Source of the DNA: Thalassovita mediterranea
GTDB taxonomy: Bacteria; Pseudomonadota; Alphaproteobacteria; Caulobacterales; Hyphomonadaceae
DNA: 64,000 nucleotides
Direction: 5' to 3'
Assembly: GCA_019448215.1 (NCBI GenBank)
Contig: CP080408.1
Span: forward strand, 1,736,001-1,800,000
In this document: positions 3,735 through 63,278 of the stretch, in pieces
How the letters are laid out: every line of letters begins with the position of its first letter
Numbering within the stretch: position 1 is the first letter of the stretch
The notes under the pieces: model-generated
Seen by the model: the letters and a program-made list of their open reading frames with translations, nothing else
What the model was told of the DNA's origin: nothing
Databases searched by the model: none
Program-made: the position numbers and the translations under genes

Positions 3735-4136
3735 ATGGTGAAGGAAATAATCGGAGCGTCCGCATTCTGTGTCGCTACATTCTGTGGAGCCGCCTTTGGA
3801 CAAAGTACGACAGGAGGCAGTGTCGGACTAACCGAAAGCGGATTTGCGTGTTTCGGACTTCAGTGCCCAGATGACCCATACTATGATAGTGCCATACCAA
3901 CGATGCCGAATGGAATGTCGACTTGGGGCACTTATGGTGACTGGCGGGGCCTGACGGCAGGTTTCCATATGCCGCCGGAGCATACAGTTCAGCAATGCCA
4001 CAATCACTGTTTCGACCATGCCCGGGCCGCGCAAAGCGATTGTCTTGGGAATGGTGGAACTGATGGCCCGTGCAACTCTGTTTTTCAATCGACCCTGAAT
4101 TCCTGTTCGACCCAGTGTATTGATAACGACCATTAG
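3735..4136 (+). CDS. small cysteine-rich secreted protein
   Basis: 133 residues starting at an ATG preceded by AAGGGGAGGAAG, an excellent ribosome binding site. Residues 1-22 form a signal peptide ending AAFG. The mature part carries a CxxxxC pair near the start, a CHNHC motif, and further cysteines up to CSTQC at the C-terminus, so an oxidised, disulfide-bonded fold outside the cytoplasm is likely. The base composition is less GC-rich than in neighbouring genes, which could mean recent acquisition. No family is recognised. Confidence 0.65.
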   Translation: MVKEIIGASAFCVATFCGAAFGQSTTGGSVGLTESGFACFGLQCPDDPYYDSAIPTMPNGMSTWGTYGDWRGLTAGFHMPPEHTVQQCHNHCFDHARAAQSDCLGNGGTDGPCNSVFQSTLNSCSTQCIDNDH

Positions 4137-7586: not shown

Positions 7587-8474
7587 CTATTCGCTGGTCT
7601 TCCCGCTGCTTTCACGTTGATCGACGGCGGCGCGCACGCTGGCAATTTCCTCGCGCAGCGACGTCAGCAGCTTCAGGATCTCGTCACGCTCTTCTTCGGC
7701 GTGCTCAACGTCTTCCTCGATATCTTCCAGAAGCTCGTCGGTTGCCGCTCTCTGCTCAGCGGCGAGAGCTTCGACAACAAGGGCGATGAACAAGTTCAGG
7801 ACGGCGAAGCTGGCGATGAAGATGAAGGTGACGAAGAACAGCCAGGCCCATGGATGGCCATCATCAATAACTTTCTGAACGACTTCAAACCGCCACCCGT
7901 CCATCGTCATGACCTGAAACAGCGAGAAAGCAGAGCTCGGCAGGTCGCCGAAAAGCTGCAGCACCTCTTCATTGTCGGTATTCCCGTACATGTTGGTCGC
8001 CATGACCGCGTAGACGTAGGTCAGCAGGGCCAGGACGGCGACGATGGCGCCCATACCCGGAAGGGCTTTCAAGAGCGCTTCGGTAATACGCTTCATCATT
8101 GGAACGACGTGAAGCAACCGTAGCACCCGCAAGACGCGCAGCGCCCTCAGCACCGAGAAGGCTTGGCTTCCCGGCGCAAGCGATATGCCGACGACGATGA
8201 AATCGAACCAGTTCCAGCCGGAGCGGAAGAAAAGAAGGCGATAGACGACGAGCTTCAGGAAAATCTCGACCGCGAAGATATAAGTGATCGCCCTGTCGAT
8301 GCCGTTGAGTGAGACGACGAGCGCTGGCGGTAAGTCTTCCTGATAGGTGAGGACACCCAGTACGATCGCGTTCAGGATGATCAGCGCCGTGATCAGGTTA
8401 CGAAACCAGATGCTTTCGATGGCTGCTTCCAGCCGCGATGTATGTGTCTCAAGATCGAGCGTAGCGCGCGCCAT
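7587..8474 (-). CDS. voltage-gated-type cation channel (single-domain, six-helix)
   Basis: 295 residues with six hydrophobic segments, the layout of homotetrameric bacterial NaV channels. S4 (residues 107-120) has arginines at every third position (R110, R113, R116, R119), the voltage-sensor signature. The pore loop reads FQVMTMDGW, so the selectivity filter is TMDGW (190-194) where bacterial sodium channels usually have TLESW. After S6 a long acidic then heptad-like coiled coil (about 235-290) should hold the tetramer together. It acts in the inner membrane; Na+ versus Ca2+ preference is open. Confidence 0.88.
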   Translation of the reverse strand: MARATLDLETHTSRLEAAIESIWFRNLITALIILNAIVLGVLTYQEDLPPALVVSLNGIDRAITYIFAVEIFLKLVVYRLLFFRSGWNWFDFIVVGISLAPGSQAFSVLRALRVLRVLRLLHVVPMMKRITEALLKALPGMGAIVAVLALLTYVYAVMATNMYGNTDNEEVLQLFGDLPSSAFSLFQVMTMDGWRFEVVQKVIDDGHPWAWLFFVTFIFIASFAVLNLFIALVVEALAAEQRAATDELLEDIEEDVEHAEEERDEILKLLTSLREEIASVRAAVDQRESSGKTSE

Positions 8475-60844: not shown

Positions 60845-60973
60845 CTAGAGCTCGCCCGGTTTCTTGGTCGACTGGCGGATGAACCAGATCGTGATGCCAA
60901 GGACGATGGCGACGAGGGTGCCAAAGCCTGCAAGCGCGGCGATGGCCAGCGGATCCACTGTCAGTTTGCCCAT
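60845..60973 (-). CDS. 42-residue single-span membrane protein
   Basis: A very short gene with GGGAGG about 10 nt before ATG 60973. Residues 7-31 (DPLAIAALAGFGTLVAIVLGITIWF) form one membrane helix, with a basic tail RQSTKKPGEL. It follows the second tRNA-like RNA by about 100 nt on the same strand. Too short for family recognition; coding is supported by the signal and the clean hydrophobic segment. Confidence 0.6.
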   Translation of the reverse strand: MGKLTVDPLAIAALAGFGTLVAIVLGITIWFIRQSTKKPGEL

Positions 60974-61075: not shown

Positions 61076-61166
61076 TGGACGGCCGCCGGGGAATTGAACC
61101 CCATTACCCTGCCACTCCACTTTGGATAGGGACCGCGTTTGCAGCGCGGCATGGAGGCGGCGGCCG
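61076..61166 (-). ncRNA. tRNA-like RNA with GCA (Cys) anticodon loop, D-arm-less
   Basis: 91 nt ending in an encoded CCA. Acceptor CGGCCGCC pairs with GGCGGCCG (8 bp, perfect) followed by discriminator U, as expected for tRNA-Cys. T arm: GGGG, loop TTCAATT, CCCC. Anticodon loop CTGCAAA (GCA) on a 5-6 bp stem. Only eight nucleotides separate the acceptor from the anticodon stem, too few for a D arm. A segment CTCCA there can pair with TGGAG in the long variable region, whose ends CCCT/AGGG form another stem. It begins 6 nt after the stop of the gene at 61173. Confidence 0.72.
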
Positions 61167-61172
61167 GTTTGG

Positions 61173-61550
61173 TCAGTTCTGTCTTGTCGGACGAGGGATG
61201 GCGGCGACCTGCCAGCCATCCTCGTAGATTACGAGACCGGGATCAGACGTTTTGCGGACGCTGATCCAGTAGCCATACGGCTCTATCAGGCTTTTCATCT
61301 GCCAAATTCGGCTGATCGGCTCACGTGCGGCGGGCTTGAACCAGCATATGGCGCGCTTGTTCGCTTCAAGGCTCAGCTGCTTTGGGCCATCGAGGTTTTC
61401 GGTGAACCATTTGAGCAGATGAGTGAGTGCGTTCGCATCGTCGAGACGCGTGGCGTCGGCGTCGCGCAGGCGGTACGCGATCTGGAAGATGCCGAGACGG
61501 CTGGAGGCGCCCGCATAGGGCACCTGGCTTTCGAAACGTATGTATCGCAT
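61173..61550 (-). CDS. hypothetical protein between two tRNA-like RNAs
   Basis: 125 residues; AAGGGA precedes the ATG by about 7 nt. No signal peptide or membrane segment, so cytosolic. N-terminus MRYIRFESQVPYAGASSRLG, a middle helical part (NALTHLLKWFTENLD), the well-defined block RAICWFKPAAREPISRIWQM and the ending DPGLVIYEDGWQVAAIPRP look like a conserved small domain, but I cannot name it. It starts about 42 nt after RNA 1 and ends 6 nt before RNA 2, so the three are probably one transcript. A role tied to the RNAs is plausible. Confidence 0.72.
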   Translation of the reverse strand: MRYIRFESQVPYAGASSRLGIFQIAYRLRDADATRLDDANALTHLLKWFTENLDGPKQLSLEANKRAICWFKPAAREPISRIWQMKSLIEPYGYWISVRKTSDPGLVIYEDGWQVAAIPRPTRQN

Positions 61551-61592
61551 GGGGCGTCCCTTGCGTGGCTCACAAGCCGATGGCGTGCCCGC

Positions 61593-61687
61593 TGGTGGGC
61601 TGCCGAGGAATCGAACCTCTCACCGTGGCCACTCCCGGTCTTGGTGAACGGGGCCGCGTTTACAGCGCGGCTGGGAGCAAGCAGCCC
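61593..61687 (-). ncRNA. tRNA-like RNA with GUA (Tyr) anticodon loop, D-arm-less
   Basis: 95 nt ending in ACCA. Acceptor GGGCTGC pairs with GCAGCCC (7 bp, with a further U-G), discriminator A and G1-C72 as in bacterial tRNA-Tyr. T arm: GAGG, loop TTCGATT, CCTC. Anticodon loop CTGTAAA (GUA) on a 5-6 bp stem. No D arm fits: the 10 nt before the anticodon stem include CTCCC, which pairs with GGGAG in the long variable region. The variable region is closed by TCACC/GGTGA. It is alignable with the Cys-type RNA along most of its length. Confidence 0.72.
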
Positions 61688-61739
61688 GGATCAGGGGTCA
61701 GCAATCGATTGTGAGGATTTCAGACAATAAGGCTCAGGT

Positions 61740-61759
61740 CGCGCCACCAGAGGGGCGCG
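61740..61759. repeat. small hairpin upstream of the tRNA-like locus
   Basis: CGCGCC (61740-61745) and GGCGCG (61754-61759) form a 6-bp stem with an 8-nt loop. It lies in the region that should contain the promoter of the locus on the minus strand. A TTGACA on that strand at 61843-61838 has no good -10 at the usual distance. Confidence 0.35.
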
Positions 61760-61850
61760 TCAGGGTGCTATGAACAGCAACAATAATAGAGCGTCATATT
61801 GATCATGGAGCGGGGGACTAACGGCGCAGGCGGAGAGTGTCAACTGTCCG

Positions 61851-61873
61851 GGTCCCCGGCCTTCGCCGGGGTG
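61851..61873. repeat. small hairpin repeat CCCCGGC-CTTC-GCCGGGG
   Basis: A perfect 7-bp stem (61854-61860, 61865-61871) with tetraloop CTTC, followed by TGA; a repeat type very common between genes in alphaproteobacteria. Confidence 0.7.
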
Positions 61874-61900
61874 AGCGGATCTGGGGAGGTGATGAAAGCC

Positions 61901-61976
61901 GCGTGGTTCGACTTCGCTCACCATGCGGCATCCAACAGCGTTCGAATACGCCCGCATGGTGAGCGAAGTCGAACCA
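61901..61976. repeat. inverted pair of the TGGTTCGACTTCGC-type repeat (copies 2 and 3)
   Basis: Copy 2 (61901-61928) and copy 3 (61952-61976, inverted) share a perfect 25-bp inverted match with a 23-nt spacer between them. With copy 1 at 59754 this repeat occurs three times within 2.2 kb. The rest of the gap 61688-62039 holds no convincing gene. Confidence 0.85.
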
Positions 61977-62039
61977 TCGGGCGTTGCAAGGCGACTGATC
62001 TGTTTTAGCCCCTCAGGGCAGAGCCGCTGCGCGGCGCCG

Positions 62040-63278
62040 CTAGTTCTTTCCCGCCTTTTTGTCGCGTCCCGCCAGTAGCCTCAACCGCAGTGCATTCAGC
62101 TTGATGAAGCCTTCGGCGTCTTTCTGGTCATAGGCGCCGTGGTCGTCCTCGAAGGTGACGATCTTCTCGCTGTAGAGCGAGTAAGGCGATGAGCGGCCCA
62201 CCAGGATGACATTGCCCTTGTAGAGCTTGAGGCGGACCTCGCCTTCGACATAGCGCTGGGAATGGTCGATGGCGGCCTGGAGCATTTCGCGCTCCGGGCT
62301 CCACCAGAAGCCGTTATAGATCAGCTCTGCATATTTTGGCATCAGCTCATCCTTGAGGTGGGCCGAGCCCTTGTCGAGGCAGGCCTGTTCGATGCCGCGA
62401 TGGGCCGTGAGCAGGATGGTGCCGCCCGGGGTCTCATACATGCCGCGTGACTTCATGCCGACGAAGCGGTTTTCCAGAAGGTCGAGACGGCCAATGCCGT
62501 GCTTGCGGCCATACTCGTTGAGGGCGGTGAGAAGCGTCGCCGGGCTCATCGCTTCGCCATTGATGGCGATGGGGTCGCCCTTCTCGAACTGGACGGTGAT
62601 GTATTCCGGCTGGTCCGGCGCGTCTTCCGGGGAGACGGTGCGCTGGTAGACAAAATCTGGGGTCTCGACGGCTGGATCCTCGAGCGCCTTGCCCTCTGAG
62701 GAGGTGTGCAGCAGGTTCGCATCGATCGAGAAAGGCGCTTCGCCGCGCTTGTCCTTGGCGATCGGAATGTCGTGCTCTTCGGCGAAGGCGATAAGGTCGG
62801 AGCGGGACTTGAAGCTCCAGTCGCGCCACGGGGCGATCACCTTGATGTCCGGGTTGAGGCCGTAATAGCCAAGCTCGAAGCGGACCTGGTCATTGCCCTT
62901 GCCGGTCGCGCCATGACAGACGGCATCGGCGCCGGTGATGTCTGCAATCTCGATCTGGCGCTTGGCGATCAGCGGACGGGCAATCGAGGTGCCGAGCAGG
63001 TAGACGCCTTCATAGACGGCATTGGCGCGGAACATCGGGAAGACATAGTCGCGGACGAAGTCCTCGCGCACATCCTCGATGAAGATGTTTTCCGGCTTGA
63101 TGCCGAGCTTCAGCGCCTTTTCGCGGGCTGGCTCCAGCTCTTCGCCCTGACCAAGATCTGCGGTGAAGGTCACGACTTCTGCGCCAAACTCGGTCTGCAG
63201 CCATTTCAGGATGATCGAGGTGTCGAGGCCGCCGGAATAGGCGAGGACGACTTTCTTCGGCGCGTGCTTGGTAGCCAT
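62040..63278 (-). CDS. argG: argininosuccinate synthase
   Basis: 412 residues from ATG 63278, which has GGAG 9-10 nt upstream; the ATG at 63293 is also in frame. The PP-loop [12 protein letters not shown] binds [21 protein letters not shown] and [12 protein letters not shown]-type blocks bind citrulline and aspartate. It joins citrulline and aspartate in arginine synthesis. No other arg gene is in the window. Confidence 0.97.

Follow-up and report, generated by a model that had tools for sequence, protein, structure and literature searches.

What are the two tRNA-like RNAs that tightly flank a small gene downstream of argG in Thalassovita mediterranea? The window, a stretch of 64,000 nucleotides of contig CP080408.1, had previously been read from its letters only, and that reading described two related D-arm-less RNAs of Tyr and Cys type, forming an operon with the protein encoded between them. 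Their relatedness and type were borne out, and both RNAs lie on the minus strand with encoded CCA ends (ACCA in RNA1, UCCA in RNA2) and GUA and GCA anticodons. Behind argG, the minus strand carries a short open reading frame (ORF), RNA1, the gene for a 125-aa protein and RNA2, in this order (Table 1); the gene starts 42 nt after RNA1 and ends 6 nt before RNA2, exactly as claimed. Ordinary tRNA-Tyr and tRNA-Cys genes are present in the genome as well.

Table 1. Features of the locus, with positions in the window
Feature	Position	Strand	Remarks
RNA1, pseudoknotted tRNA-like RNA, anticodon GUA (Tyr type)	61593..61687	-	95 nt; G1-C72, A73; 104.4 bits, model R1
RNA1 anticodon GUA	61661..61663	-	
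RNA1 D-type helix, 5' strand CTCCC	61673..61677	-	5' of anticodon arm
RNA1 D-type helix, 3' strand GGGAG	61632..61636	-	
RNA1 D-loop-like UGG	61629-61631	-	directly after GGGAG
RNA1 crossing helix, 5' strand CCGT	61648..61651	-	directly 3' of anticodon stem
RNA1 crossing helix, 3' strand ACGG	61623..61626	-	
RNA2, pseudoknotted tRNA-like RNA, anticodon GCA (Cys type)	61076..61166	-	91 nt; C1-G72, U73; 98.6 bits, model R1
RNA2 anticodon GCA	61140..61142	-	
RNA2 D-type helix, CTCCA / TGGAG	61152..61156 / 61115-61119	-	
RNA2 crossing helix, CCCT / AGGG	61128..61131 / 61107-61110	-	
Gene for 125-aa protein	61173..61550	-	no known family
Leader ORF MINMTLYYCCCS*	61768..61806	-	Tyr-Tyr-Cys-Cys-Cys; start codon close behind promoter-like site
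Promoter-like TTGACA and weak -10 TTAGTC	61838-61843 and 61816-61821	-	read by eye
P1 5' strand (CAATA ... GCTC)	61789..61801	-	within leader ORF
P1 3' strand (GAGC ... TATTG)	61725..61735	-	
G+C-rich hairpin	61740..61759	-	between leader stop and P1 3' strand

Neither RNA was recognised by the available models. ARAGORN found no tRNA in the window. Rfam gave no match in the window at gathering scores. The RNAs are not among the 43 RF00005 places of the genome, and no RF00005 match was reported at them in an output that does not display weaker overlapping clan matches. At lax limits, both matched only tRNA-Sec (RF01852), scoring 26.5 and 25 bits where the threshold is 47. They share the long acceptor with tRNA-Sec, their best Rfam match, but have no D arm at the place where tRNA-Sec has it and no UCA anticodon. 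A relationship to tRNA-Sec was rejected for the whole class described below, which scores 22-36 bits against 47 and has the five anticodons GUA, GCA, UCU, CCU and UAU but not UCA.

Fold, D-loop-like element and tRNA identity

The chain starts with an 8-bp acceptor, two nucleotides, a D-helix strand CTCCM, the anticodon arm, one strand of a crossing (V) helix and a loop, and continues with the D partner KGGRG, UGG or AGG resembling a D loop, the second V strand, a 4-bp T arm, the acceptor and NCCA. The 8/4 split between acceptor and T helices, preferred by the sequence-only reading, was confirmed by the formation of 8/8 acceptor pairs in the first six sequences; among 36 RNAs, the acceptor (helix 1) is paired in 99.0% and the T stem (helix 4) in 99.3% of cells. 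Pairing of CTCCC with GGGAG and of CTCCA with TGGAG across the anticodon arm is real and covaries in sets of 6, 15 and 36 sequences. The D-type helix varies in step among members (CCCAC/GTGGG, CCAGC/GCTGG, CCAAC/GTTGG, CCTGC/GCAGG). Of the two stems proposed to close the variable regions, CCCT/AGGG of RNA2 stood, whereas TCACC/GGTGA of RNA1 gave way to the conserved helix CCGT/ACGG. Because the D-type and V helices cross, the core is a pseudoknot, as had been suggested.

Homologues with compensatory changes were found in large number. In six sequences, 98.6% of cells are paired and 8/23 pairs show double changes. The corresponding values are 96.8% and 13/23 for 15 sequences, and 98.4% of 814 base-pair cells and 20/23 for 36 RNAs including viral ones, both of these alignments having been built with a covariance model, which favours its own pairs. 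The 36 RNAs contain 215 double-changed cells compared with 56.9±5.9 in shuffles, and 0/500 shuffles were as high by any measure. This set omits the chromosomal RNAs of G004, G019 and G021 and the decayed-looking one of G091 (L051-L054), as well as L194, which fell below the score limit. The V helix was included in no model. At fixed positions in 15 distinct RNAs from IMG/VR it covaries, V2 being G-C in 8 and C-G in 7, and V3 C-G in 8, G-C in 5 and U-A in 2. With the D and V helices included, 99.5% of the cells of these 15 RNAs are paired and 79 are double-changed (shuffle maximum 36), the T arm being preset by the search pattern. A best-helix search in the 18 chromosomal RNAs gave, among others, CCGT/ACGG, CCCT/AGGG, CCTT/AAGG and GCTGTAA/TTACAGC; for G091 the frame was mis-set by the script, and three pairs are left by eye. 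We regard the pseudoknotted fold of this RNA class as very probable.

The same data bear on the idea that the RNAs are decayed or chimeric tRNA copies without function. G091 (C33, UCA end) and G004, whose acceptor is spoiled, do look decayed, and tRNA finders leave the RNAs unreported. As a general account, however, this explanation is refuted by the covariation over 36 sequences, which 0/500 shuffles match, and we give it hardly any weight. Since the window RNAs covary with their relatives and stand beside an ordinary tRNA-Tyr and tRNA-Cys in the genome, they are not mere decayed copies.

The description as D-arm-less did not hold. Between acceptor and anticodon arm, at the canonical place of the D arm, there are too few bases, and the D-type strands flank the anticodon arm instead. 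A conserved GGAGUGGY lies 3' of the anticodon arm; the GGAG within it forms a helix with CTCC on the 5' side. By eye, GGAGUGGY resembles the D loops of the genome's tRNA-Cys (GCGGAGTGGTGACGC) and tRNA-Tyr (GCCGAGTGGTTAAAGGC), and the D arm therefore seems moved rather than missing: the D loop, together with one strand of the D stem, appears to have been transferred behind the anticodon arm. The GG of the element, kept in 34/36 rows, may correspond to G18 and G19 meeting the T loop. The members G121 and L122 have deviating T loops and are without the GG.

Other features are those of tRNAs. U33 is found in 36/36 rows (G091, outside the set, has C33), CCA in 35/36 and the T loop TTCRATT in 32/36, the last being preset by the pattern for most viral members. 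The discriminators noted earlier, A with GUA and U with GCA, were recovered throughout, with A73 and G1-C72 in 13/13 GUA rows and U73 and C1-G72 in 4/4 GCA rows and likewise in three left-out GCA RNAs. Judged by these elements, both window RNAs can probably be charged. In the UCU RNAs position 73 is G, A or U, so that ArgRS identity is less tidy.

To our knowledge, functional tRNAs are commonly taken to have an invariant order of acceptor, D, anticodon and T. In circularly permuted tRNA genes the permutation is confined to the gene and the mature tRNA is normal. These genes resemble the present RNAs in the changed order of tRNA parts, but here the two acceptor ends keep their usual order and it is an internal segment of the RNA itself that has changed place. 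The allo-tRNA group retains its D arm on the 5' side of the anticodon arm and mostly has Ser, His, Cys or Sec identity. With the present class, allo-tRNAs and other 8/4 or 9/3 tRNAs share a 12-bp acceptor/T stack divided 8/4 and a place outside the usual cloverleaf set; the parts of PMC7609411 consulted describe none with a D element behind the anticodon arm in a pseudoknot. In metazoan mitochondrial D-arm-less tRNAs the acceptor is likewise followed by the anticodon arm without an intervening D arm, but according to the same parts of that source they lack it altogether, whereas here it is seemingly moved and pseudoknotted (PMC7609411). No tRNA with this arm order was met in open-licence literature including the parts consulted of PMC7609411, PMC11555353 and PMC12851939; prior work elsewhere is possible. 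We conclude that the RNAs probably belong to an unrecognised structural class of tRNA. As the class breaks the arm order but retains the anticodon loop, elbow-type bases, CCA and synthetase identity elements, it offers a test of which parts translation needs.

Distribution on chromosomes and in phages

A covariance-model search, proposed in the sequence-only reading, was carried out with model R1 built from six RNAs. It gave 15 places with at least 48.8 bits in 105 genomes of the family; the next match among those listed has 33 bits, and the 15 are therefore more than chance. The weaker matches are as long as tRNAs, and two of these, located in the window genome (G000), are RF00005 tRNAs. Beyond the family, members occur in G631 and G670 (another family of the same order) and in G344 (another family of the same class), which brings the total to 16 alphaproteobacterial genomes with 18 RNAs: 10 GUA, 7 GCA and the GCA RNA of G091. 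A lone Cys-type RNA is present in G004, G019, G020, G021 and G022, and a Cys-type and a Tyr-type RNA stand in tandem in G010. In genus g1, the RNA lies at most about 2 kb downstream of argG in 10/10 member-bearing genomes, with variable insert genes in the gap.

In larger genome draws, matches were found in 2/385 genomes of the class, 14/398 of the order and 2/398 of the phylum, the own genome included in each; 10-11 candidates per genome were fully scored, so that misses are possible. The second match of the phylum draw, G1013 with 39.1 bits, is 77 nt long like a canonical tRNA and was not counted. Besides the own genome and G1013, model R3 with strict filters detected no member in 396 genomes of the phylum-wide draw. 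The class is rare on chromosomes.

Some further observations were made around argG. The gap behind it (window 61830-62040; L060-L083) is variable in the genus, insert genes differing between close relatives and by eye looking membrane, HNH-like or HEPN-like. A small membrane protein MGKLTVDPLAIAALAGFGTLVAIVLGITIWFIRQSTKKPGEL is encoded at 60845-60973 (minus strand) of the window, and by eye similar membrane proteins lie downstream in G004, G012, G017, G018, G019, G020 and G021. An inverted repeat around GGTTCGACTTCGCTCACCATG at 61900-61980, with a similar stretch near 59.76 kb, probably belongs to an extragenic repeat family. In G018 (L068), a promoter-like site and flanking leader pieces follow argG without leader ORF and RNA, by eye a relic.

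Among viral sequences, a pattern scan of IMG/VR yielded two GUA members on stretches with 11 and 5 ARAGORN tRNAs, and weak blastn pieces (E 0.3-0.9) in phage records led to two unannotated RNAs with anticodons CCU and UCU in Aeromonas phage AhSzw-1 and to a member in Nitrincola phage 1M3-16. With a T-arm pattern, 27 IMG/VR loci were selected, and 24 such RNAs (39-56 bits) were found in 23 of them, 0/24 being reported by ARAGORN. Ordinary ARAGORN tRNAs were present on the fetched stretch in 9/23 of these loci and absent in 14/23, so the company of tRNAs is not general. A viral scan with GAGTGG yielded at least 120 stretches. Of the 126 pattern places taken from L161-L286, 12 pass the fold test, with seven distinct sequences. 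UAU (Ile) members were found in L253 and, as one identical sequence, at four places (L194, L198, L205 and one more). The anticodons met with in phages and viral contigs are UCU, CCU, UAU and GUA.

Among the sequences scored, model R3 separates members (at least 61 bits) from ordinary tRNAs (about 39 bits at most). The fold was confirmed by model in five named phages, AhSzw-1, Arash, Av-05, PG07 and ME3, the last four with 77-87 bits in R3. Nitrincola phage 1M3-16 scores 34.8 bits with R2 and 62.5 with R3. Matches in phages PM1 (L125) and Silvergun (L126, 37.5 bits with R3) were left out of the counts; in both, an unannotated stretch with an 8/4-like end (L125 2474-2527, L126 1429-1529) lies just before a normal tRNA. 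On two viral contigs with pseudoknotted Arg RNAs, ARAGORN also reports a tRNA-Stop (UUA; L132 6822-6906) and a tRNA-Pyl (CUA; L140 5296-5370), possibly suppressor tRNAs.

Used as a blastn query, one IMG/VR RNA matched 347 of 50,697 phage records, and in 334 the match covers at least 80% of the RNA; 307 of them are Vibrio phages, many from one sampling series. A second query matched 343 phage records, mostly of the same hosts. Among 40 of the 347 matches that were listed, none was annotated as tRNA, which suggests that phage tRNA counts are too low. A member was also found in a planctomycete, a Bythopirellula MAG (the L005 genome), where a GUA RNA (47.9 bits with R2, 64.6 with R3) ending in ACUU without CCA lies on an 8,954-base contig within an array of 18 ARAGORN tRNAs, none of them Tyr. 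In the planctomycete tRNA array of L122 (2498-8902), three similar MRDH.KLRAFELADQ genes were noticed and, by eye, another odd Cys-like RNA near 7765-7865 (minus strand). Plasmids gave no match for the protein or the DNA.

The phage versions mostly read AGA and some read AGG and AUA, codons that are rare in many hosts. These RNAs would act as an extra tRNA supply for the phage. It may also be that codon supply is all there is to the class, its members being ordinary extra tRNAs by function and the odd core a neutral by-product. The codons read by the phage versions agree with this explanation, but the core is kept across very divergent sequences and the chromosomal versions duplicate tRNAs that the genome already has; we consider it a possibility of limited weight.

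Leader ORF, neighbouring protein and possible role

In 12/16 chromosomal genomes, the RNA is preceded by an ORF that is 9-12 codons long and in which Tyr or Cys codons stand in tandem; the window's copy of this ORF and the helix enclosing its codons are absent from the sequence-only reading. The peptides are MINMTLYYCCCS (window), MIHMTLYYCCS, MFNMTLYYCSCS, MFNMQLYYCS, MFNKPLYYCT, MRNRTLHHYYCT, MMNSTLFYYCCT, MTLTLYYYS, MNNQLYYLS, MHALIYYYCS, MTLMTLYYCCC and MTKPLHTCCCL (G020). YY or CCC occurs in 12/12, which is not an independent count, since the leaders were picked by eye and recognised partly by these codons. They stand close behind a promoter-like site, with an exact TTGACA in 8/12. The only leader without Tyr, that of G020, precedes a locus with only a Cys RNA. 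Leader Cys codons without a Cys RNA occur in G012, G095, G016, G028 and G344, G091 has only its decayed-looking RNA, and G019 keeps the leader YY though its Tyr RNA is lost. A longer candidate leader in G121 with two separate Tyr codons was not counted, the leader of G021 is spoiled, and none was seen upstream of the RNA in G004 and G022.

The 5' part of the leader pairs with the strand preceding the RNA to form helix P1. In seven leaders, P1 and the small stop-codon hairpin comprise 12 pairs, which form in 97.6% of 84 cells, and 3/5 outer P1 pairs change on both sides. Counted in register, 2/500 shuffles reach the paired share and covariation score and 9/500 the number of double-changed pairs. 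Duplex energies were less informative: in 12 genomes, between 0 and 130 of 500 shuffles equal or exceed the native duplex, swapped partners often do equally well, and most P1 duplexes do not clearly exceed shuffles. Support for P1 thus comes from the in-register count and the folds, not from duplex energies. In folding calculations, the probability of P1 is 0.71-1.00 without ribosome in 10/12 loci (inner pairs only for eight) and zero with a ribosome on the first Tyr or Cys codon, as a consequence of masking. Since P1 is predicted to form without a ribosome in most of these loci and to be lost under it, a coupling between codon reading and RNA output is plausible. We rather favour a control of RNA output by leader translation, with the sign either way.

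Leader-peptide attenuators of amino-acid operons combine a short ORF, tandem codons and alternative helices. In the present loci, too, a tiny ORF with a tandem repeat of codons for a single amino acid lies near putative alternative RNA helices, but the gene that follows encodes a tRNA of matching identity, and antitermination is putative. In G670 and G631, an intrinsic terminator is predicted before the RNA with a probability of 0.86-0.94 at any ribosome position while that of P1 is 0.00-0.01; folding did not support P1 as antiterminator in these two, the terminator being predicted in all states. By eye, no intrinsic terminator was seen in the other loci. The idea that the Tyr RNA reads through the UAG of the leader was considered and dropped, as the frames past the stop are by eye not conserved. 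If true, placing a tRNA gene under a leader peptide that contains the codons read by this tRNA would represent a new way of controlling tRNA supply. In L092 (G044), about 3930-4000, a divergent homologue of the 125-aa protein has an upstream short ORF MRQMIFKLPPPCLCETRR, perhaps another leader, and a hairpin, and no tRNA-like RNA.

Taken together, the RNAs represent a real structural class of tRNA-like genes in phages and some chromosomes, most likely working tRNAs, and the window holds a chromosomal Tyr/Cys pair. Such RNAs would fold into an L shape with the usual 12-bp acceptor/T stack, be charged by TyrRS, CysRS, ArgRS or IleRS, and then decode. From the conserved tRNA elements, it seems quite probable that the class is charged and used on ribosomes. 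One might instead regard them as charged or synthetase-binding mimics that do not decode and act as regulators, sensing or buffering TyrRS and CysRS, or Tyr and Cys. Tight identity elements combined with an altered core, a leader reading the same codons, and the small protein following the RNA in eight genomes are compatible with mimics; against them stand U33 in 36/36 rows, the five different anticodons, and members accompanied by ordinary tRNAs in the planctomycete array and in 9/23 IMG/VR stretches. A sensor would presumably not need Arg and Ile versions either, and we consider mimicry unlikely.

For working tRNAs, the Tyr and Cys RNAs of the window would be located behind a very short, probably leaderless ORF of Tyr and Cys codons. 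A ribosome paused on this leader would cover one strand of P1, so RNA output would probably follow the speed at which UAY and UGY are read. The cell might hold these Tyr and Cys tRNAs in reserve, their altered core allowing them to evade enzymes by which normal tRNAs are attacked or recognised. By analogy with phage tRNAs, which according to the parts of PMC11555353 consulted rescue tRNA-Tyr depletion, a reserve against tRNA attack is the most likely single use, though we propose it only tentatively. Phage tRNAs that evade tRNA-attacking defence resemble the present class as a phage tRNA supply that includes tRNA-Tyr, but those in the sources consulted are ordinary in shape (PMC11555353) or variants of the anticodon loop. 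If the altered core does evade tRNA nucleases, this would partly answer why phages carry tRNAs. The full proposal is a second tRNA topology with a transposed, pseudoknotted D arm and at least five anticodons, spread by phages and acquired by alphaproteobacterial chromosomes, which keep it as a leader-gated Tyr/Cys reserve that tRNA-attacking enzymes do not recognise; as a whole it is speculative.

The 125-aa protein was found in 6/61 genomes (own and relatives) and on seven genome contigs. In the loci of the window genome, G012, G016, G028 and L002, the five closest, a GUA RNA precedes its gene. The association expected by the sequence-only reading holds in part: the protein follows the RNA in 8/16 chromosomal genomes (G000, G012, G016, G028, G091, G095, G631, G670) and is not adjacent in the other eight, being encoded elsewhere in G121 and not found in G004, G010, G019, G020, G021, G022 and G344. 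In tblastn searches of 288 loci with four members of the family, it was detected in 0/164 viral or phage loci. Homologues outside the alphaproteobacteria (L003, L005-L008) have no RNA adjacent according to model R2; one of these genomes has an RNA on another contig. An obligate pair of RNA and protein was rejected on these three grounds, and the protein is not supported as a partner that the RNAs require. In place of the operon, we propose a tRNA architecture accompanied here by a leader peptide and, in many cases, by the neighbouring gene.

It could further be supposed that the charged RNA is a substrate of the protein in tRNA-dependent chemistry off the ribosome. A protein gene directly 3' of the RNA in half of the chromosomal genomes, in two families, would fit, but RNAs without adjacent protein in 8/16 genomes, detection of the protein by tblastn in 0/164 viral or phage loci, protein genes without adjacent RNA in planctomycetes and a gammaproteobacterium, and the absence of a PDB fold match for the protein make this quite improbable. 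Family searches with the protein gave no convincing family. Its AlphaFold2 model has a mean pLDDT of 88.5; the best E value in a PDB fold search was 0.47, i.e. no match, and BFVD returned one uncharacterised phage protein (E 5.1e-6, TM 0.73). A gammaproteobacterial homologue (L007 4722-4817) lies about 180 nt after a tRNA-Sec gene.
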